A DNA stretch of 64,000 nucleotides. Source: Lachnospiraceae bacterium. Its GTDB lineage: Bacteria; Bacillota; Clostridia; Lachnospirales; Lachnospiraceae. Both the position numbers and the translations under genes were made by a program. Position 1 is the stretch's first letter. The number at the start of each line of letters is the position of its first letter. Location: NCBI GenBank assembly GCA_021771755.1, contig JAETOL010000001.1:296526-360525 (forward strand), in the 5' to 3' direction. Under the pieces are notes generated by a model. It was not told the DNA's origin. It searched no databases and was given only the letters and a program-made list of their open reading frames with translations. This document shows, in pieces, positions 12,942 through 56,424 of the stretch.

Positions 12942-13376
12942 TCAAGGGGCGGTATCCATAAATACGATCTCCCAAAGATCCTCAAAAGGGATTTCCGTCT
13001 CATCTGCAAGGATCAGCCTGTGCCGGAACTCATCCAGCTTTTTTACGGTTCCGCTGACCGTCACATATGCCCCGCCCTCCTTACGGAGATCCGGGCGAAA
13101 AAAGCAGACAGAGACCTCCGGGTGCTCACCGATATGCTCTTTGATAAATTCCAGCCGGCGGTTCAGGATGTCCAAAGCTTCCTCATCCGGCTGGATCCGG
13201 CGTTCTGTCAGCCTTGCCGTTTCCTTTACCGCCTCTCCGTATCCGGTCAGAGCGGCAAACGGCGCAAACTGAGCCGCCCGGTCCAGAACAGGCATCTGCG
13301 GCCGTTTATCTGACACATGATGGGGAAGATGGATGATATCATCATATTTATGGCTTTCTCCAAAATAATTTTTCAT
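12942..13376 (-). CDS. YolD-like small protein
   Basis: 144 aa; MPVLDRAAQFAPFAALTGY, directly downstream of a Y-family polymerase, as YolD-family genes often are. Confidence 0.65.
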   Translation of the reverse strand: MKNYFGESHKYDDIIHLPHHVSDKRPQMPVLDRAAQFAPFAALTGYGEAVKETARLTERRIQPDEEALDILNRRLEFIKEHIGEHPEVSVCFFRPDLRKEGGAYVTVSGTVKKLDEFRHRLILADETEIPFEDLWEIVFMDTAP

Positions 13377-13381
13377 CTTAT

Positions 13382-14920
13382 TTATGCTTTATGCCCTCCG
13401 ATCCTGGAATTGCGGTCTTTGGCGGTAGCCCCTTCCTGCAGATTCATTCCCTTTAATATGGCATTCTTCCCGAATTTTTTCTTGATATCCAACATGGCCT
13501 GCTGCATCTTACGCTCTCTTTCCAGAAGCTCCTTTTCTTTCTGCCTTTGCTTTTCCAGGGCTTCATAGTCTGTAAAAAGATCCAGCTGCTCAAAGGTTTC
13601 CTTCTGTTTCACTGCGGTTTCCGGCACTACCTTATTGGCAGCCAGATACATCCGGCGGATCAGAAGCTTTTTGTCCATGATCCGGTCATAAAGTCCCATC
13701 ACCGCATCGGTGATCTTCTTTGTGGAAGAAGTCTGACTGTCCAGATTTACTGTTCCATGAGCATGTCTGGGAATTTTTCTGCCATAGCGGTCCACCTTAA
13801 TCTCACCCTTATAATCCTTCTTCCGACCGGCATCTGTCAGATTTTCAATATCATACCCTACCGTCAGCGTCAGCTGATCTGTGACCAGCCGCTTATCCAC
13901 CAGATCAAGGACAAGAAGATCCGTCATTTCCCGGATCACCAGGCGTGCCTGCTCAAAAGTATAGGGACAGGGCAGTACCTGTCCGGATCCAATGCTGTTG
14001 GTGGACGGCTTATATTCTTTGATATCTGCAATCGTGCAGGGCTCCCATCCCCAGGCATGATCGATCAGAAGCTCTGCATTAATGCCAAAAAGCTCATAAA
14101 GAAGATCTTCATTATAAAAATCCCCCGGGCCTCCCAGAGAGCATCTGGCAATGTCTCCCATGGTAAACATGCCGTTTGCTTTCAGCTTTTTCTCATAGCC
14201 TTTTCCCACACGCCAGAAGTCCGTCAGCGGCTGATGATCCCACAAAAGCCTCCGGTAGGACATTTCATCAAGCTCTGCGATCCGTACTCCGTACTCATCC
14301 GGTTCGATATGTTTTGCCACAATGTCCATGGCGATCTTGCAAAGGTAAAGATTCGTGCCGATCCCTGCCGTTGCTGTGATCCCGGTTGTCTGCAGTACGT
14401 CGCGGATCATCTTCATGGCAAGTTCTCTGGCAGTAAGCCCGTAGCTTTTCAGATAGTGTGTGGCATCAATAAAGACCTCGTCAATGGAATAAATATGGAT
14501 ATCCTCCATTGCAATATATTTCAGATAAATGTCCACGATCCGGGTGCTGTATTCCATATAAAATGCCATCCGGGGCGGAGCGGCTATATAACTGACCTCC
14601 AGTTCCGGATAGCGCTCCAGATCCTCTGCCATATAAGAAGAACCGGCAAATTCTCCTCCCGGAGCAAGCTTTTTCCTTCTGGCATTGACTTCTTTCACCT
14701 TCTGCACCACCTCAAAAAGTCTGGGGCGGCCCGGGATGCCGTATGCCTTCATGGATGGGGACACTGCCAGACAGATGGTTTTTTCCGTACGGCTGGCATC
14801 TGCCACTACAAGATTTGTTTTCATGGGATCCAGTCCCCGCTCCCGACATTCCACGGAAGCGTAAAAGGACTTCAGATCAATGGCTATATATACATGATTT
14901 TCGCTAATATCACTCATCAC
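13382..14920 (-). CDS. Y-family DNA polymerase (UmuC/UvrX-like)
   Basis: 512 aa; VYIAIDLKSFYASVECRERG, IHIYSIDEVFIDATHYL, TATAGIGTNLYLCKIAMDIVAKH. Confidence 0.92.
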   Translation of the reverse strand: MMSDISENHVYIAIDLKSFYASVECRERGLDPMKTNLVVADASRTEKTICLAVSPSMKAYGIPGRPRLFEVVQKVKEVNARRKKLAPGGEFAGSSYMAEDLERYPELEVSYIAAPPRMAFYMEYSTRIVDIYLKYIAMEDIHIYSIDEVFIDATHYLKSYGLTARELAMKMIRDVLQTTGITATAGIGTNLYLCKIAMDIVAKHIEPDEYGVRIAELDEMSYRRLLWDHQPLTDFWRVGKGYEKKLKANGMFTMGDIARCSLGGPGDFYNEDLLYELFGINAELLIDHAWGWEPCTIADIKEYKPSTNSIGSGQVLPCPYTFEQARLVIREMTDLLVLDLVDKRLVTDQLTLTVGYDIENLTDAGRKKDYKGEIKVDRYGRKIPRHAHGTVNLDSQTSSTKKITDAVMGLYDRIMDKKLLIRRMYLAANKVVPETAVKQKETFEQLDLFTDYEALEKQRQKEKELLERERKMQQAMLDIKKKFGKNAILKGMNLQEGATAKDRNSRIGGHKA

Positions 14921-47820: not shown

Positions 47821-48126
47821 TTAATTTACTTTATACACCGAATGAAAAACAACTTCCTTCCCTTTACTTTTTGCAAATGCAATTTCTTTAGAAACCTGAT
47901 TTCCAATATATCCTTGAATATCCACAACATAAATCGCATCGGAGAGTTCGATCTTTCTATAATGCGCATTTTCAAGGGCAACCTGTTCCATAGGTGTAAT
48001 ATCCAAATTATCTATATTGTACACACATTGTAAAACGTTCATATCATGCTTTGTTTCTAACAGAAATGCGATCCTCTGCATTTCTGTTTCAAATTTCATA
48101 CTTCCACAGATTGTAACTGTTCTCAT
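47821..48126 (-). CDS. Small Rossmann-like protein (nucleoside 2-deoxyribosyltransferase/DUF4406-like)
   Basis: MRTVTICGSMKF...AIYVVDIQGYIGNQVSKEIAFAKSKGKEVVF. Confidence 0.6.
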   Translation of the reverse strand: MRTVTICGSMKFETEMQRIAFLLETKHDMNVLQCVYNIDNLDITPMEQVALENAHYRKIELSDAIYVVDIQGYIGNQVSKEIAFAKSKGKEVVFHSVYKVN

Positions 48127-48266
48127 CGTACACCTCGCTCAATCAGGCTTTAACAGGGTCAGGCAACTTCAGTAATTCACTTTGACTATCTGGATACCGT
48201 TTTTCTATCTTTTGGAAACTTTTAAAATGACGATCGTAGCCAGTATCTAATATTTTTGCATTTTTC

Positions 48267-48731
48267 TTAAATAACTCTACTTTCCAGGTAACACTCCAGT
48301 AAATAAGCTGGATTCTCGTAATACATACTGCTGTTATAATCATCAATCTTAGTACTTAAAAAGGAATTGTATACCTTAAACAATGCTTCAATAATTCCGA
48401 TTTTTTCATGCTCAGCTACAGCTTTTATCAATCTTTTATACACTTTTCCAATATCCCAATGTGATGGAATTGCATAATTACACTCATTTACATTATCAAA
48501 TTCACCGTTTTTAATACCTGCTTCCCGTATAAAATCATCACTGACACGTTCTATATTATCACTATGGTATATGTCTGCTAAATCGTAAATTTTTTCAATT
48601 TTTTCTGCCCCTAACATATTTACGACATCTGCCCGCGTATTTCGAGTTTTTCTGGCAATATAATCAATCAGGCTACAGGTAAAAAATAAATCGTTATCTT
48701 TTGCCGCTTCTCTTCCATTATTTTCCGTCAT
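48267..48731 (-). CDS. DUF3791-like protein with C-terminal extension (antitoxin-like partner)
   Basis: KDNDLFFTCSLIDYIARKTRNTRADVVNMLGAEKIEKIYDLADIYHSDNIERVSDDFI; stop at 48267 followed by a readable tail in the +1 frame. Confidence 0.7.
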   Translation of the reverse strand: MTENNGREAAKDNDLFFTCSLIDYIARKTRNTRADVVNMLGAEKIEKIYDLADIYHSDNIERVSDDFIREAGIKNGEFDNVNECNYAIPSHWDIGKVYKRLIKAVAEHEKIGIIEALFKVYNSFLSTKIDDYNSSMYYENPAYLLECYLESRVI

Positions 48732-49195
48732 TACAACACCTCCTCAGCCCCTCTATATTCCAGACATTTCAGTGCCTCATTTGTACAGAAATTAATCTGA
48801 TGTGTTGGATATTTAAATTTTGCCAATATCCAGAATTGTTCTCTGGTAATAGCCCCTTCCATATAATCGGATACATAATTATAAATCTGATCGTTTGCCA
48901 TTGCCCCGATTACAATATCATAATCATGAGGTTTTCCACTCCTGCAGTCAATTATAAAATCCAACCATTCATCCGTCATATCTTTGAAGTCTTTTATCCG
49001 TAAATTTGAATTCAAACGTACCTCATATATAGACACAACTTTAGTATCATATCGTTTCGCCCACCGTTGTGCCTGCTCTTTTATAATTGTACAATAAAAT
49101 CCTGTTCCGAAATCTTTCGTATTCCTCCCGATACGGATTTCCGGATGCTCTACCGGCATAAACCCACCATGGTATACTGTCATTTTTGCCATCAA
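48731..49195 (-). CDS. DUF3990-like protein (ADP-ribosyltransferase-like toxin candidate)
   Basis: TVYHGGFMPVEHPEIRIGRNTKDFGTGFYCTIIKEQAQRWAKRY...WLDFIIDCR...DIVIGAMANDQIYNYVSDYMEG. Confidence 0.75.
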   Translation of the reverse strand: MMAKMTVYHGGFMPVEHPEIRIGRNTKDFGTGFYCTIIKEQAQRWAKRYDTKVVSIYEVRLNSNLRIKDFKDMTDEWLDFIIDCRSGKPHDYDIVIGAMANDQIYNYVSDYMEGAITREQFWILAKFKYPTHQINFCTNEALKCLEYRGAEEVL

Positions 49196-49501
49196 ATCCC
49201 CCCTGTCTATCCAAAATACTCCTGCATAAGACTGTTAAATAACACTTGCGTTTTATTCAATATGTACTGCAATTTTTGATTTGTCGCTTTATTATTTCCA
49301 TTCTACCACAATTCCGAGAACGTGCCAACGCCGGACTGGTGAAAGTCCGTTTTGAAAGGTAAATCAAGTTACTGTTCAAGGGCAATGTCATTTAGTAAAG
49401 CTACAAGGCTAAAACCTCTATTGGGGATCCAACCAAATTTTTAGAAAATTCTCTAATTAGTTCTGCTATATGCAGTTCTACTTTTATATCTTCTGGTTTC
49501 G

Positions 49502-49780
49502 TTAGTTGCCGTCCAACAGTTCTGTATCATCAATGAGAATCTGCCACTTTTTCATTACTCTATCGTTATCGAAGGTTTTTCGACAGATCATACAGTATGC
49601 AATATCTTTCTGTATTTCTTCCAGTTCTTCGAAATCCATTATTTCCAAAAACTCATTTACAGTAACTCCATGCGGAAGGTAATCCTCTTTGCATCTCCAA
49701 GAAAAGAGTAGCGTTTCTCTACAACACTGTCATCACTAAACTTCCGCATTATCTCCTGCATACAAAAAACAATAATTATT
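49502..49780 (-). pseudogene. Decayed transposase N-terminal fragment
   Basis: Minus-strand translation CRETLLFSWRCKEDYLPHGVTVNEFLEIMDFEELEEIQKDIAYCMICRKTFDNDRVMKKWQILIDDTELLDGN*, with upstream MQEIMRKFSDDSV in a different frame. Confidence 0.65.
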
Positions 49781-49855
49781 TCGACATATTTCCTCATAAT
49801 ACACCGGATTTTATGATAGAATAAAATGGAAGTTATATGGAAGGGAAGTAGTGCT

Positions 49856-50572
49856 ATGTATAGAATCGGAATCTGTGATGATGAAAAAGGAACCTGCGAA
49901 GAACTGGAAAAAATGACTCGTCATTTCTTTGATATCCAGAGGGAAAAAACAGAAATAGAAATTTTCTATTCCGGAAATATTTTTATGGATTATCTGGATC
50001 AGGGAAACTGGTTTCACTTATTATTTCTTGACATAGAGCTAACATCCTCCAACGGAATAGAGATCGGAAATTACATCCGAAAAAATCTGAAAGACGAACA
50101 GGTAGAAATTGTGTATATATCCTCCAAAACACATTATGCCATGGATCTTTTCCAATGCAGACCTTTAGATTTTCTTGTAAAGCCACTTAAATATTCAGAA
50201 GTTTCCAGATCATTGGAAACTATGAAAAAAAGACATATAATCAATAAGAAAATATTTGTATATTCATCAGATAAAACTATAAAAAGAATACCTGTTGAGA
50301 ATATTATGTACTGCATCAGCGAAAATAAACAAATTACTATGACCCTTCACACAGGAGAACATATCCGATTTAGAGGCAAACTCAGCGATACTGCAAATAA
50401 ACTGCCAGATACAACCTTTATCCAAATACATAAATCATATTTGATAAACCTTAATTACATATCAGAATACTCTGCTGACAAAGTAAAAATGACGGACGGA
50501 ACCGTACTTGGAATTTCTCCGTCAAAGAAAAAAGAGGTAAAGGCAAAATTTATGCAATATGAACTGCTTTGA
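49856..50572 (+). CDS. AgrA-like LytTR-family response regulator
   Basis: MYRIGICDDEKGTCEELEKM receiver; LytTR domain KRIPVENIMYCISENKQITMTLHTGEHIRFRGKLSD..FIQIHKSYLINLNYISEY. Confidence 0.92.
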   Translation: MYRIGICDDEKGTCEELEKMTRHFFDIQREKTEIEIFYSGNIFMDYLDQGNWFHLLFLDIELTSSNGIEIGNYIRKNLKDEQVEIVYISSKTHYAMDLFQCRPLDFLVKPLKYSEVSRSLETMKKRHIINKKIFVYSSDKTIKRIPVENIMYCISENKQITMTLHTGEHIRFRGKLSDTANKLPDTTFIQIHKSYLINLNYISEYSADKVKMTDGTVLGISPSKKKEVKAKFMQYELL

Positions 50573-50582
50573 GGAATAAGGT

Positions 50583-51845
50583 ATGGAAGGAATCTTATTA
50601 GGAATTATAGGAAATATTATAAGAGTATATGCTATATATCGTGGAATGGAGGTACTTTTTGATTCAAAAAAAGAACTTCGATGGCATAAAATTTCAGCTT
50701 ATTTTTGTTTCATTCTTTTTACAAGCGCAGGATATTATCTTGTACATCAGGTTTATATAACATTTGCTTTGAATATTCTTTCTCTAAGCATAATTTCTTT
50801 GTGTTACACAGGCACTGTCCTGAAAAAATTTGTTGTAGTCACCAGTATCTATGTAGTAAATATTATGACAGAAAGCTTATTATTTTTTATGCCTGCATCA
50901 TATCCCGGACAAGATTCAGTTATGGAAGGAATCCTCCAATGTATTATGGGAATGGGAATGTTGGCAATCTCTGTCCTTTATGAAAAAACAATCGAATTGC
51001 GGACAAAAAATATGGAACTTCCTGCATATCTGTGGGGAAGCGTTCTTTTAATTCCATTGCTAAGCTTTGCCATGATGCTAAAAATAACAATGATCAGAAG
51101 AAGTTCCGGCGAATCTGTAACAGAACTTATTTTAGGTATTTTGATTATTAATGTACTAATCATATATCTATATGATGCTCTGCAGAATTATTATAAAGAA
51201 AAAGCAGATAAAGAGAATCTGAGAAAACTGGTATCCGGATACAGTCGGCAATTAAATATTATGACAGAATCCTATGCGCAGATCCGGGAAATACGTCATG
51301 ATTTGAAGCATCATATTTTTTCGCTTACACACCTCATTCAGAATAATCGAAAAACAGCAGCTCTGGATTATATCTCTCAAATGGAACGGCATATCTGCAA
51401 TCCGGAAGAATATGCATCTTCTGGAAACAAGGAAATTGACAGTATATTAAACTATTTCCTGAATGAAGCTAAAGGATCTTTAAAACAGCTTCATGTACAT
51501 ATTGGAATTTCCAACAAAATAAATCTGAACAGCTTCTATGCGAGCGTTGTGATCGGAAATCTTCTGGAAAATGCAATTGCCGCTTCACAAAATTCAGAAG
51601 AAAAATATTTAAGTATTAAACTGATGGAAACAAAAAATGCGCTACTTATAAAAATTGAAAACAGTTATGACGGTATTATTTCTCACAAAAACGGAAATCT
51701 AACTACCAGAAAAAAAGAAAAAGGCAGCCATGGAATCGGCCTTCAAAGTGTAAAACGAATCGTAGCAGAGACTGGCGGAGTATTAGAAACAAGCTGGGAT
51801 GATAAGCATTTTTATATATCTGCAATGCTTTTTCAAACCAAATAA
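50583..51845 (+). CDS. AgrC-like GHKL-domain sensor histidine kinase
   Basis: N-terminal TM block, IREIRHDLKHHIFSLTHLIQ, ASVVIGNLLENAIAAS, GSHGIGLQSVKRIV. Confidence 0.92.
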   Translation: MEGILLGIIGNIIRVYAIYRGMEVLFDSKKELRWHKISAYFCFILFTSAGYYLVHQVYITFALNILSLSIISLCYTGTVLKKFVVVTSIYVVNIMTESLLFFMPASYPGQDSVMEGILQCIMGMGMLAISVLYEKTIELRTKNMELPAYLWGSVLLIPLLSFAMMLKITMIRRSSGESVTELILGILIINVLIIYLYDALQNYYKEKADKENLRKLVSGYSRQLNIMTESYAQIREIRHDLKHHIFSLTHLIQNNRKTAALDYISQMERHICNPEEYASSGNKEIDSILNYFLNEAKGSLKQLHVHIGISNKINLNSFYASVVIGNLLENAIAASQNSEEKYLSIKLMETKNALLIKIENSYDGIISHKNGNLTTRKKEKGSHGIGLQSVKRIVAETGGVLETSWDDKHFYISAMLFQTK

Positions 51846-51854
51846 TTTTTCAAA

Positions 51855-51882
51855 GAGGAAGTAACAGTCACTTCCTTTTTTA
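51855..51882 (+). terminator. Terminator after agrC-like gene
   Basis: AGGAAGT aacagtc ACTTCCTTTTTTATTTT. Confidence 0.75.
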
Positions 51883-51883
51883 T

Positions 51884-51911
51884 TTTCGCCGAAAACTATA
51901 TAAATTTCGCC
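51884..51911 (+). promoter_or_regulatory. Candidate LytTR operator: two TTTCGCC direct repeats 21 bp apart
   Basis: TTTCGCC at 51884-51890 and 51905-51911; a TATATT -10-like element lies downstream at about 51941. Confidence 0.5.
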
Positions 51912-51976
51912 CTTCACATGTTCTTCTTTAAAAATCATGCTATATTGAAAAAAAGCACAAAGAAAGGGGCAATAAT

Positions 51977-52117
51977 ATGAAAAAAATGCAGCTACATGGA
52001 TTTAAAACTATAATTTTTTCCGCCGCAAAAAAAATAACAAAATTTGAATCTAATTCAGCTTGTACTTTTTGGGCGTATCAGCCAAAATTACCAGAAGGAG
52101 CCAAACGTAACAAATAA
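51977..52117 (+). CDS. AgrD-like cyclic lactone autoinducer propeptide, 46 aa (not in ORF track)
   Basis: MKKMQLHGFKTIIFSAAKKITKFESNSACTFWAYQPKLPEGAKRNK*; amphipathic leader, core Cys, P/E-rich charged tail; stop overlaps agrB start (TAATG). Confidence 0.88.
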   Translation: MKKMQLHGFKTIIFSAAKKITKFESNSACTFWAYQPKLPEGAKRNK

Positions 52118-52680
52118 TGTTTTTACAAAACATAATCCTGAAGCTTATCAGCAACGATCCGAACTTAAAAGAAGACGATATTCCGCTTATTTATTATGGA
52201 CTTACCCAAGGTTTCTTTCTCATTTTAAATTTACTTATATCTTTAACAATTGGTATACTATGCGGTGTCTTTCTCCAATGTTTCTGGACGGTTTTTTTAT
52301 TGTTTCCATTAAGAATCTATGCCGGGGGATATCATGCTCAAACTCGAACCTCCTGTTTTTTCATATCAATTTTTATGATATTGATAACATCATTAATTTT
52401 GCGGTATTTTACCATCCCCGGTAATGTTTGCACAGCTTTTTCAGCCATATTAACAGCATTTATATGGAAACAAGCACCTTTAGATACTGAAAACAAAAGA
52501 CTTGACGATGAAGAAAGAAAAAAATATCGAAAAAAAACACATATCATTCTTCTCATCCATGCGTTGCTAATTATCACTTGCATCACATTAAAAAATATAT
52601 CCTTTTTAAATTGTATCTTTTTAGCGCAAGGAATTACAGGAATTTTATTATTTGCATGCAAAATGAAAATGAAGAGGTGA
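52117..52680 (+). CDS. AgrB-like autoinducer-processing membrane protease
   Basis: 187 aa; LLFPLRIYAGGYHAQTRTSCFF (catalytic His and Cys), multi-TM. Confidence 0.93.
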   Translation: MFLQNIILKLISNDPNLKEDDIPLIYYGLTQGFFLILNLLISLTIGILCGVFLQCFWTVFLLFPLRIYAGGYHAQTRTSCFFISIFMILITSLILRYFTIPGNVCTAFSAILTAFIWKQAPLDTENKRLDDEERKKYRKKTHIILLIHALLIITCITLKNISFLNCIFLAQGITGILLFACKMKMKR

Positions 52681-52743
52681 TACCAATGTACCTATTTATC
52701 CTTTCAAATTTTCAAAACACCCATTATACTAGGAGGAAATATT

Positions 52744-53172
52744 ATGAAATTAAAAAAGAAAATAGGATTATTCGTCACTGCTGTATCTTTAATATTTACC
52801 AATTGTACAAGTGTATTTGCTGCCAGACCTTCATTTTCATTCAGCCTTTCTGCCTACAGTAGCACCTCAACATGGACAAGCAATGCAGCAGATAATTATA
52901 ATGTCAAAACAATTCCAAATGATGACTGGACATTAATATTAAGAGGCATCTCTTTTTCAGAACCTATTGAAGGTGTTGGAATGGCATATGCATTATTTAC
53001 CAATACGACCCGTAAATCTTCTATTGTTTGGAGAACTTCAAGTGGAACAGGACACTATTCTTGGGATGGAACTGTAGGGTATACATATAATTTAAAAGGC
53101 AGGCTAGATACAGATCAACCAGGGCGTTGTATTTCATCTGGTATTTATAACGCAGATACTATTTATGATTGA
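52744..53172 (+). CDS. Small secreted protein of unknown function (DUF2712-like)
   Basis: Signal peptide MKLKKKIGLFVTAVSLIFTNCTSVFAA then RPSFSFSLSAYSSTSTWTSNAADNYNVK; 142 aa. Confidence 0.7.
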   Translation: MKLKKKIGLFVTAVSLIFTNCTSVFAARPSFSFSLSAYSSTSTWTSNAADNYNVKTIPNDDWTLILRGISFSEPIEGVGMAYALFTNTTRKSSIVWRTSSGTGHYSWDGTVGYTYNLKGRLDTDQPGRCISSGIYNADTIYD

Positions 53173-53255
53173 TTTTTATTCAGCAAGCATATTATATACA
53201 TCTGAATAATTTCAATTTCCTTAAAACCAACTCTCAAACAGAAAGTGGTGACGCC

Positions 53256-54179
53256 ATGAAACAGTTTCCTCAATTTCTTACAAAGCCGATACTGTTCTTT
53301 GCTGTCATAGCAACAGTATCCTGCGGTGCATCTATTGCAAACGCCGATTCCAAAGACTATGATCTGCCGGAACATATCACAGAAGTATACAATGGAAAAG
53401 AAGGGGAATTCCGTATTGATGCAGATGTTGAAGTCATTTCCAGCGACGTTTACACGGGAACCGTAATTTTTTCAGATATTTCATTAGAAAAAGGAAAACT
53501 TCTGTATGGCGATATTGAAAAATGGGAAATTACAGATGAAATAAAAGATGCAGAAGCTCTAAAATATGATAATGAAAATATATATCTGTATAAGCTGAAT
53601 GACACACACCAATTTTATTTTGATACACCGAATAATGTCCCTGCAGATTATGATATTGGTATAGCAGCAGCAAATAACTTAGCGACAGAAGCGGTTAATT
53701 TATTAGAACTCAATGCTGAAATACAGGGACCCGTTGCAGAATATGATGATCCCAAAGGTATTTACAGCTATGTGCTGCGAGGAAAAATCCAGGATATACC
53801 TACCGTTTATATGTCAGAAGTCCCATCCATAGGTAGCCTTGAAATCACCGGACAAAACTACAGCTACCTGCAATATGGAAATAATTTACATATTGAAAAT
53901 CAAGAAAAAGCAGAATTACTGGATTTCGAAGAAATTCTCGATAAAGCCCAGCTCTATGCAGAAGCAGGATATATTAAAATACCAGATCATATGTCCATAA
54001 CAAATATTTCTCTGGGTTATTATATCGAATTGACATCGGAACAGCCCCGCTTTTTCCCGGTTTGGAATTTCCAGGTACCCTCTCTTATCGATGGCTCACG
54101 ATTCATGTGGGGACAGAATGCTGATGATCTTTTCTACATAAATGCTGTAACTGGAGTTCTGGTAAAAGTTATTGCATAG
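53256..54179 (+). CDS. Secreted or membrane-anchored protein of unknown function
   Basis: N-terminal signal MKQFPQFLTKPILFFAVIATVSCGASIANA; start reset to the ATG at 53256. Confidence 0.65.
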   Translation: MKQFPQFLTKPILFFAVIATVSCGASIANADSKDYDLPEHITEVYNGKEGEFRIDADVEVISSDVYTGTVIFSDISLEKGKLLYGDIEKWEITDEIKDAEALKYDNENIYLYKLNDTHQFYFDTPNNVPADYDIGIAAANNLATEAVNLLELNAEIQGPVAEYDDPKGIYSYVLRGKIQDIPTVYMSEVPSIGSLEITGQNYSYLQYGNNLHIENQEKAELLDFEEILDKAQLYAEAGYIKIPDHMSITNISLGYYIELTSEQPRFFPVWNFQVPSLIDGSRFMWGQNADDLFYINAVTGVLVKVIA

Positions 54180-54189
54180 GAGCAAACTT

Positions 54190-54924
54190 ATGGAAAAAAA
54201 CTGCATTATAAATAAACGGATGCTGCTTTCCGTACTTATTTCAATCGTTATAATGGGACACACCTATATAACCTCCGATATCCATTGGAAAGAATCAGAT
54301 GTACTTCAGCTTCTTACCTTTCCTATGGCAATGTCGATGTTCAATCCTTTTGCAGCGATTTTCCCCGCTTTTCCTCATGCAATGAGCTTTACAGAAGATT
54401 ATAATACTTCTTTCTTTCATTTTGTACTCACCCGCTGTACACGAGGAAAATATATTTTGCGAAAAATATTTAGTGTAGGATTATCAGGGGGATTTATGAT
54501 GTTCCTGTCATATGGATTTATTTTTTTAATTGCTTTTTTAATTGGCGCTCCGACCACAACTGAAAATGTTTCAGAATTTTATCTTAACACCCTATGGTAT
54601 CCTATTGCAGCAATATGGGGAGGAGGACTTGTCCTTCTTTTGAAACTTACTCTTGCTTTTTTATTCGGACTTGTATGGAGTAATATCTGCCTTTTTCTGT
54701 CTGTTTTGTTTTTAAACAGATATGTGGCTTTTATCGGAACCTTTATTATGTATCAATTTTTATGGCAGGCACTGTCCGCCAATATCTGGAATCCCGTATA
54801 TTTACTACGAGGCGATTGGGGATATGCTTCTTATTGGCAGCCAGTTCTGATCCAGACATTTATATTTTCTATAGTATGTGTACTAAACTGGATAGGTTTG
54901 AAAGGAAGGCTGAAAAATGGATAA
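54190..54924 (+). CDS. Multi-TM protein, probable ABC permease component
   Basis: About 6 hydrophobic segments; contiguous with ATPase operon. Confidence 0.65.
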   Translation: MEKNCIINKRMLLSVLISIVIMGHTYITSDIHWKESDVLQLLTFPMAMSMFNPFAAIFPAFPHAMSFTEDYNTSFFHFVLTRCTRGKYILRKIFSVGLSGGFMMFLSYGFIFLIAFLIGAPTTTENVSEFYLNTLWYPIAAIWGGGLVLLLKLTLAFLFGLVWSNICLFLSVLFLNRYVAFIGTFIMYQFLWQALSANIWNPVYLLRGDWGYASYWQPVLIQTFIFSIVCVLNWIGLKGRLKNG

Positions 54925-55768
54925 GCATAAATTGATATTAATACAATTAAAACTTCAGTCTTCCATTCTTATCCCCCGAATTTGGGCTGGATATATCTAT
55001 GGATTCTGGCTTGGCTTATCTATTTCGATACGTTATTTACAATTTGCTGCAGGAAATACAGTGGGAATTTTCGATTCTTTTCTCCTGCTGTATAATGATA
55101 TATTCCAGGTTACTCTTCTTGTAATTGGATTTTTTATAATAATTGCCGATGCGCCCTTTGTGAATTCTATGACTTATTTTACATTGATAAGAAGCAGCGG
55201 ATTATTCTGGCGGCTATCCATGACATCTTATCTGCTTATACAACTTCTCATATACCAGGCAATTATTATAATGGGCTGCATATTTCCAATTTTTATAAAT
55301 GGAAATTTTACCTCTGGATGGAGTGATACTATGCAAATACTACTTGGCGCAGCACCTCAGATTGCAATGACTGAATACAGTCTGCCTATACCCAATAGTT
55401 GGATTTTAAAATTTTTCAGTGTAAATGAAACTCTTTTTCATAGTTTTTTATTAATATCTCTTTATTGTTCCTTTTTAGGGATCATGATTTTTATAGGCAA
55501 TTTAAACTCCCGATTTCCGATGGGAATGCTCTTTGCGATAGGAATTCATTTTTCAGGCATGCTGCTAATGTCTGATTTTGTTCCCTCATATCATCCTGCT
55601 GTGCTGGCACATGGAATAATGCAATTTCATATTCCGGGAAAAGAAATGTTATCTTTTACAGAAAGCTATTCATTATTTTTATTAAGCAATGCAATTTTGT
55701 TATCCATTCTAACTCAAATCTCAGGTCATATTGATTACAATATAGCAGTGAGTCAAAAAAACTGGTAA
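54917..55768 (+). CDS. Multi-TM protein, probable ABC permease component
   Basis: 283 aa, 6 or more hydrophobic segments, overlaps previous gene end. Confidence 0.65.
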   Translation: MDKHKLILIQLKLQSSILIPRIWAGYIYGFWLGLSISIRYLQFAAGNTVGIFDSFLLLYNDIFQVTLLVIGFFIIIADAPFVNSMTYFTLIRSSGLFWRLSMTSYLLIQLLIYQAIIIMGCIFPIFINGNFTSGWSDTMQILLGAAPQIAMTEYSLPIPNSWILKFFSVNETLFHSFLLISLYCSFLGIMIFIGNLNSRFPMGMLFAIGIHFSGMLLMSDFVPSYHPAVLAHGIMQFHIPGKEMLSFTESYSLFLLSNAILLSILTQISGHIDYNIAVSQKNW

Positions 55769-55782
55769 ACAAGGAGATAGCT

Positions 55783-56424
55783 ATGGCAATTATAGAAATT
55801 GATAATATCTCGAAAGAATTTTCTGGCGATATTGTTCTTCACCCTGTTAGTATCTCTTTTGAAAAAGGAAAAATATATGGGATAATCGGGAGAAATGGTT
55901 CTGGAAAGACAGTTTTATTAAAAATAATAAGCGGTTTTCTTAGACCAACCACTGGCACAGTAACTATTAATGGAATATCGCTTGGAAAGAAAAACGAATT
56001 TCCTAAAAACACAGGAATTCTAATTGAGAAACCGGGTTTCCTTCCATACAAAAACGGTTTTCAAAATCTGAAATATTTAAGTCAAATCCAGAAATTAATT
56101 AATGATCAGGAAATTTACAAAGTCTTAGAACAAACAGGTTTAACTTCTGCAGTAAAAAAGCTTGTTGGAAAATACTCTATGGGTATGAAACAGCGTCTGG
56201 GAATCGCACAGGCAATTATGGAAAACCCGGAAATCCTTATTTTGGATGAACCTATGAATGGATTAGATGATCAGGGCGCTTCGCAAATGCGAAAACTTTT
56301 TCTGCAGCTTCGCAATGAAGGAAAAACTATTCTTCTTGCCAGTCATATGCAGGAAGATATTCATGAATTATGTGATAAAGTATATCGTATAGATGCAGGA
56401 ATTATAGAAGAAATAAAAATCTGA
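55783..56424 (+). CDS. ABC transporter ATP-binding protein
   Basis: GIIGRNGSGKTVLLKIISGF, KYSMGMKQRLGIAQAIMENPEILILDEPMNGLDDQG. Confidence 0.95.
   Translation: MAIIEIDNISKEFSGDIVLHPVSISFEKGKIYGIIGRNGSGKTVLLKIISGFLRPTTGTVTINGISLGKKNEFPKNTGILIEKPGFLPYKNGFQNLKYLSQIQKLINDQEIYKVLEQTGLTSAVKKLVGKYSMGMKQRLGIAQAIMENPEILILDEPMNGLDDQGASQMRKLFLQLRNEGKTILLASHMQEDIHELCDKVYRIDAGIIEEIKI

Follow-up and report, generated by a model that had tools for sequence, protein, structure and literature searches.

The window, meaning the whole 64,000-nucleotide stretch of DNA that was analysed, holds what is, judged by sequence, a complete agr locus in the order agrA-agrC-agrD-agrB, followed 3' of agrB by five genes in the same direction (52744-56424), which encode the proteins P142 and P307, two permeases and an ABC ATPase and are referred to here as the cargo (Table 1). 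The start given for agrA is that of the listed open reading frame, and a later in-frame start is possible. AgrC has at least five transmembrane segments by hydropathy and an H-box that reads RHDLKHH, and is 25-33% identical to the AgrC proteins of most syntenic agr loci, while in AgrB the catalytic residues H73 and C80, seven apart, are invariant in an alignment of 14 AgrB sequences. One intact AgrB is encoded in the 3.7-Mb genome from which the window comes, and elsewhere in the same genome a degraded AgrB-like fragment is interrupted by three stops (G000:C146:2142-2354). Separately, the agrA beside one of the five AgrD genes of a related genome, G037, looks shortened within the LytTR domain (L088:3649-4107).

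Table 1. Genes and predicted features of the agr-cargo block; positions are those of the window.
Feature	Position	Strand	Description and basis
agrA	49826..50572	+	response regulator, receiver and LytTR domains; Pfam LytTR 7.1e-18, Response_reg 1.1e-9
agrC	50583..51845	+	420-aa membrane sensor kinase; Pfam GHKL 1.6e-21
terminator-like hairpin	51852..51880	+	3' of agrC, between agrAC and agrD; 11-pair stem, then T run (terminator scan)
predicted AgrA (LytTR) operator	51883..51911	+	direct repeat ATTTTCGCC/AATTTCGCC with 21-bp period, then TATATT -10-like box
agrD	51977..52117	+	46-aa pheromone precursor; TIGR04223 9e-12 and ring spacing
agrD parts (predicted)			leader M1-A28; ring C29-T30-F31-W32-A33; C-terminal recognition tail YQPKLPEGAKRNK
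agrB	52117..52680	+	membrane peptidase/cyclase; Pfam AgrB (PF04647) 1.5e-36
P142	52744..53172	+	142 aa, N-terminal hydrophobic signal-like segment, predicted secreted
P307	53256..54179	+	307 aa, N-terminal hydrophobic segment, predicted exported
ABC permease 1	54190..54924	+	~5 transmembrane segments by hydropathy; synteny
ABC permease 2	54917..55768	+	hydropathy; two genomes of the genus have relatives (53%, 48%)
ABC ATPase	55783..56424	+	Pfam ABC_tran 7.8e-33; nearest the lantibiotic-protection type

The agrD reading frame had earlier been picked out as an unannotated AgrD precursor, with coordinates and a peptide that proved exact. Its product scores 44.9 bits against NCBIfam TIGR04223 (quorum_AgrD, AgrD family cyclic lactone autoinducer peptide), for which the curated cut-off is 19, so that the frame is no chance ORF and, by this family match, is a genuine AgrD precursor. 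It is the sole AgrD over that cut-off in the genome, the runners-up reaching 13.9 and 13.8 bits, and an AAAGGGG ribosome-binding site precedes its ATG. Other elements of the original prediction also stand: C29 is the only cysteine of the peptide, the proposed agr context is borne out by the LytTR, GHKL and AgrB domain matches of the adjoining genes, and the agrB start does lie inside the agrD stop codon (TAATG at 52115-52119), the overlap from which translational coupling had been proposed. The leader, described as amphipathic, contains an 18-residue stretch with a hydrophobic moment of 0.49, a value reached by 2% of shuffles, although this figure is optimistic because the stretch was chosen as the best among 12 positions. 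AgrD itself is a known kind of gene, an ordinary agr peptide; the new part is the cargo, which together with the operator described below goes beyond what had been noticed at first. In a genome of another genus (G070), an agrD-like frame is broken at an eight-T run directly after the Cys codon (L050:7577-7725), a break that may reflect faulty sequencing or a genuine switch.

The direct repeat upstream of agrD looks like an AgrA operator. In S. aureus, AgrA binds a pair of direct repeats located 5' of its promoters (PMC4227749), and across 14 agrD upstream regions a period of 21/22 bp scores 110, against a mean of 86 and a maximum of 94 in shuffles and 80-94 for other periods. The repeat takes the form TTTTGACA or TTTCTACA in many loci, in several of them roughly 72 bp away from the start of agrD; a convincing repeat was not found in six of the 19 agrD upstream regions listed (L047, L048, L049, L089, L090 and L094). 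The window and L093 have in common a CGCC-type repeat and LytTR residues distinct from those at TGACA-type loci, and this covariation of repeat type with LytTR residues, seen in few cases, is only suggestive. At up to three mismatches, 0.72 chance matches would be expected in the window alone, and one was found, with a single mismatch. The site also ranks first among matches genome-wide, where the 42 found at up to three mismatches equal the count in a reversed control and none of the others is convincing; the two next-best were rejected, as their common CCATCAGCGCATGGA core looks like a coding repeat. Because the best genomic site is its own and no other convincing site was seen in the genome, the agr system appears to be dedicated to the locus in which it lies. 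In the proposed mechanism, AgrC would sense the peptide and AgrA would bind the repeat and so turn on agrD-agrB, with read-through extending expression to the five cargo genes, the whole forming a dedicated quorum switch for local cargo. Read-through is suggested by the layout, by synteny, and by the result of a terminator scan, which found no terminator at the junctions from agrD through the ATPase gene.

The proteins of the cargo mostly fall outside known families. P142 has no Pfam or NCBIfam match at E<=1, and so no match to a bacteriocin family, and P307 has nothing above the Pfam or NCBIfam cut-offs, its weaker Pfam matches (YycI-like, InlK_D2) being taken as noise, as was a dehydrogenase match, under the Pfam cut-off, of a protein from G070. 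Both permeases are without a Pfam or NCBIfam family above cut-off. The ATPase scores 180.4 bits against TIGR03740, under the cut-off of 309.75 that marks membership of the lantibiotic-protection family, and 109 bits against TIGR03608, for which the cut-off is 254.85. A lactococcin-972-type bacteriocin system was considered and rejected, given the lack of a bacteriocin family match for P142 and the score of the ATPase under the TIGR03608 cut-off. AlphaFold models built from four-sequence alignments were too poor for use (pLDDT 46 for P142 and 44 for P307), and profile searches against solved structures found nothing, one match at E=0.51 being disregarded. Relatives of P142 occur in three genomes of the genus (60%, 58% and 30%), and a search of genome contigs with the P142 alignment returned three relatives only; the same kind of search with AgrB alone returned none. 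P307 has relatives at 42-43% in L039 and L040, and its equivalents elsewhere look lipoprotein-like.

The same cargo order adjoins agr in G059, G037 (three loci), G020, G060, G040 and G033, and a looser version of the arrangement is found in G070. In G037 (L087) and G060 (L046) the cargo sits between agrD and agrB, which is the clearest sign that agr and cargo form one unit. The window carries the P142 class; a search of 64 genomes of the genus for another class of agr-linked secreted protein gave 16 strong matches, every one of them no more than 10 kb from an AgrD and several at most 150 bp away, and nine of 17 AgrD loci carry a match. Nine of these sequences were used to build the class profile and their source loci had been picked for carrying agr, so that the later matches (G033, G040 and further G037 loci) are the informative ones. 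The statistic for this linkage assumes independent clusters and unrelated genomes, and is read only as "not chance". Outside the genus this class is rare, with weak matches in 4 of 397 genomes of the family. Because the alignments are weak, both for P142 against the other agr-linked secreted proteins (hhalign probability 76% over 63 columns that start in the signal peptide) and for P307 against its counterparts (at the C-terminus), the equivalence of the cargo is mainly positional, a matter of gene order. At two loci (L042:18-8765 and L044:5684-12902) a secreted protein and a lipoprotein of about 370 aa occur in tandem, interspersed in L044 with additional copies of agrD.

Control by agr is not obligatory for the cargo, because the nearest P142 relatives (58-60%; G034 and G042) sit in genomes without an agr match, beside divergent BlaI (PF03965) and M56/BlaR1-type (PF05569) genes. 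A BlaI-type gene also adjoins the ATPase gene of the 30% relative in G059 (L041). BlaI and M56 regulators answer cell-wall-active antibiotics in known cases. The BlaI-type repressors by the closest cargo relatives, at loci without agr, lie at L039:2756-4357, L040:7377-8959 and L041:12368-12739, and an M56 (BlaR1-type) peptidase accompanies two of these repressors. Related ABC modules lie 3' of an AgrC-like kinase in G013 (L103) and G025 (L105); in L103 the presence of a LytTR regulator was confirmed, and agrD and agrB were not recognised near either module. The same type of output thus seems to stand under several controllers.

The whole agr-cargo block lies in a stretch (48000-56424) of about 34% GC, compared with 44% for the window, whose flanking genes encode a TypA/BipA-like GTPase and a kinase-like protein (both named by eye). 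The stretch was probably acquired; no integrase was seen. Mobilisation-like and sigma-like genes flank agr in other loci (L087:3321-3698 and 13306-13951; L049:7719-8394), and suggest that some agr loci travel on integrative elements. In plasmid records the agr-linked secreted-protein class was not matched; unannotated phage records gave three weak AgrB matches, and hence no sign that the locus of the window is phage-borne.

Taken together, an AgrD that acts in local control of the cargo is a reading that can be held with considerable confidence, a confidence that leaves cargo function out of account. Function is the weakest step: P142 would most likely be a secreted effector, with P307 and the ABC transporter serving in export or self-protection, and the cargo is possibly a bacteriocin-like competition system. 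The layout, with its secreted protein, exported partner, protection-like ABC ATPase, tandem duplication and quorum control, is the ground for an antibacterial reading, and the cargo most likely provides a secreted factor, which may be antibacterial, together with a transporter for protection. The more specific proposal, of a new class of secreted antibacterial protein with an exported immunity protein and an ABC transporter in Blautia-group gut bacteria, under interchangeable controllers (agr or BlaI/M56-type), is put forward as a tentative one that may well prove wrong.

A serious contender, if still short of probable, is that the link to agr is real but the cargo is no weapon, being instead a surface or stress module (for envelope sensing, peptide detoxification or adhesion) that is turned on at high density. 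The BlaI and M56 genes that serve as alternative regulators would suit such a module, as would the want of a bacteriocin family match for P142, whereas the combination of secreted protein, exported partner and protection-type ABC ATPase, as well as the tandem duplication seen in G059 and G020, fits effector-immunity pairs better, though not decisively. It is improbable that agr, whether self-contained or a global regulator, just happens to stand beside unrelated cargo on a low-GC island. The closest P142 relatives do lack agr, and with the low GC of the block a joint arrival by chance is possible, but such an account must contend with an arrangement that recurs beside agr in six genomes and, more loosely, in G070, with the two of these genomes in which agrD and agrB enclose the cargo, and with the lack of another convincing operator in the genome.

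In the proposed mechanism AgrD, recognisable by gene, family and conserved spacing, is processed to a cyclic peptide signal, the chemistry of which is deduced. AgrB would cut between A33 and Y34, closing a five-residue thiolactone, C-T-F-W-A. The ring is preceded by NSA and followed by YQPKLP, which places its Cys five residues before an aromatic-Gln/Glu-Pro motif, and this spacing was counted in AgrDs gathered by TIGR04223 match from relatives up to the order level, in collections of one genome per species, and read from DNA; sequences were chosen by their TIGR04223 coordinates, a spacing-based pattern having been dropped as circular. Among 46 AgrDs with a recognisable [Q/E]-P-type motif, the residue at -5 is Cys in 28 and Ser in 10 (38 of 46), seven are scored at 4 and likewise carry Cys or Ser at -5, which is weaker support, Ser being common, and the Cys of the one scored at 6 sits five before a Phe. 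The verified pentapeptide of C. thermocellum stops right before the conserved Tyr (PMC5322536), and in C. perfringens a tailless five-residue thiolactone is thought to be natural, the six-residue CLWFTH being an inhibitor (PMC7300355). Because nearly all related AgrDs keep Cys or Ser at -5, and because of these two precedents, the ring is most likely CTFWA, the first choice of the original prediction; its second choice, the six-residue C-T-F-W-A-Y, for which the aromatic Y34 directly adjoins A33, runs against both the spacing rule and the two precedents and is very unlikely. The NSA before the Cys is like the ATSA listed before the ring of the C. perfringens precursor (PMC3673130), a likeness that suggests a tailless signal, and N-terminal trimming after NSA would probably release such a ring, as has been inferred for C. 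perfringens. Tailless thiolactones can rearrange to all-amide rings of unchanged mass (PMC11297923), and the CTFWA ring, with a calculated [M+H]+ of 609.25 as the thiolactone, may likewise rearrange to cyclo(CTFWA). The corresponding calculated values are 767.32 for SA-CTFWA, which keeps a tail, and 772.31 for the six-residue ring.

AgrD-type genes are common in the family, with 86 of 397 sampled genomes carrying them, and the papers found on such genes in gut commensals offer little on their targets. Because the predicted signal is short, synthesisable and of defined mass, and its likely targets are adjacent and mostly without known family, the signal, receptor, operator and output are directly testable. 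The recurring cargo module is a candidate source of new gut competition factors.

Among known systems, the LanFEG-type lantibiotic-protection ABC transporter (TIGR03740) is the one to which the window ATPase is most similar, and it too has two small permeases, but the window ATPase is under the family cut-off, its permeases are without a family, and no lanthipeptide genes were seen nearby. The AgrD-type pentapeptide of C. thermocellum shares a five-residue ring ending right before the conserved Tyr (PMC5322536), and differs in being a lactone (Ser) rather than a thiolactone and in having no surrounding agr operon. Clostridium perfringens AgrD likewise has a probably tailless five-residue ring with two aromatics (PMC7300355), but the ring is CLWFT rather than CTFWA, and its agrBD is linked to VirS/VirR, whereas agrC and agrA are adjacent in the window. 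Clostridioides difficile agr2 (R20291) has the same agrA-agrC-agrD-agrB order, a 46-aa AgrD and a LytTR-type AgrA, and is reported to modulate virulence and colonisation genes more broadly (PMC3754575). The window locus differs from agr2 in having a terminator-like hairpin between agrAC and agrD, and cargo directly 3' of the agr genes.
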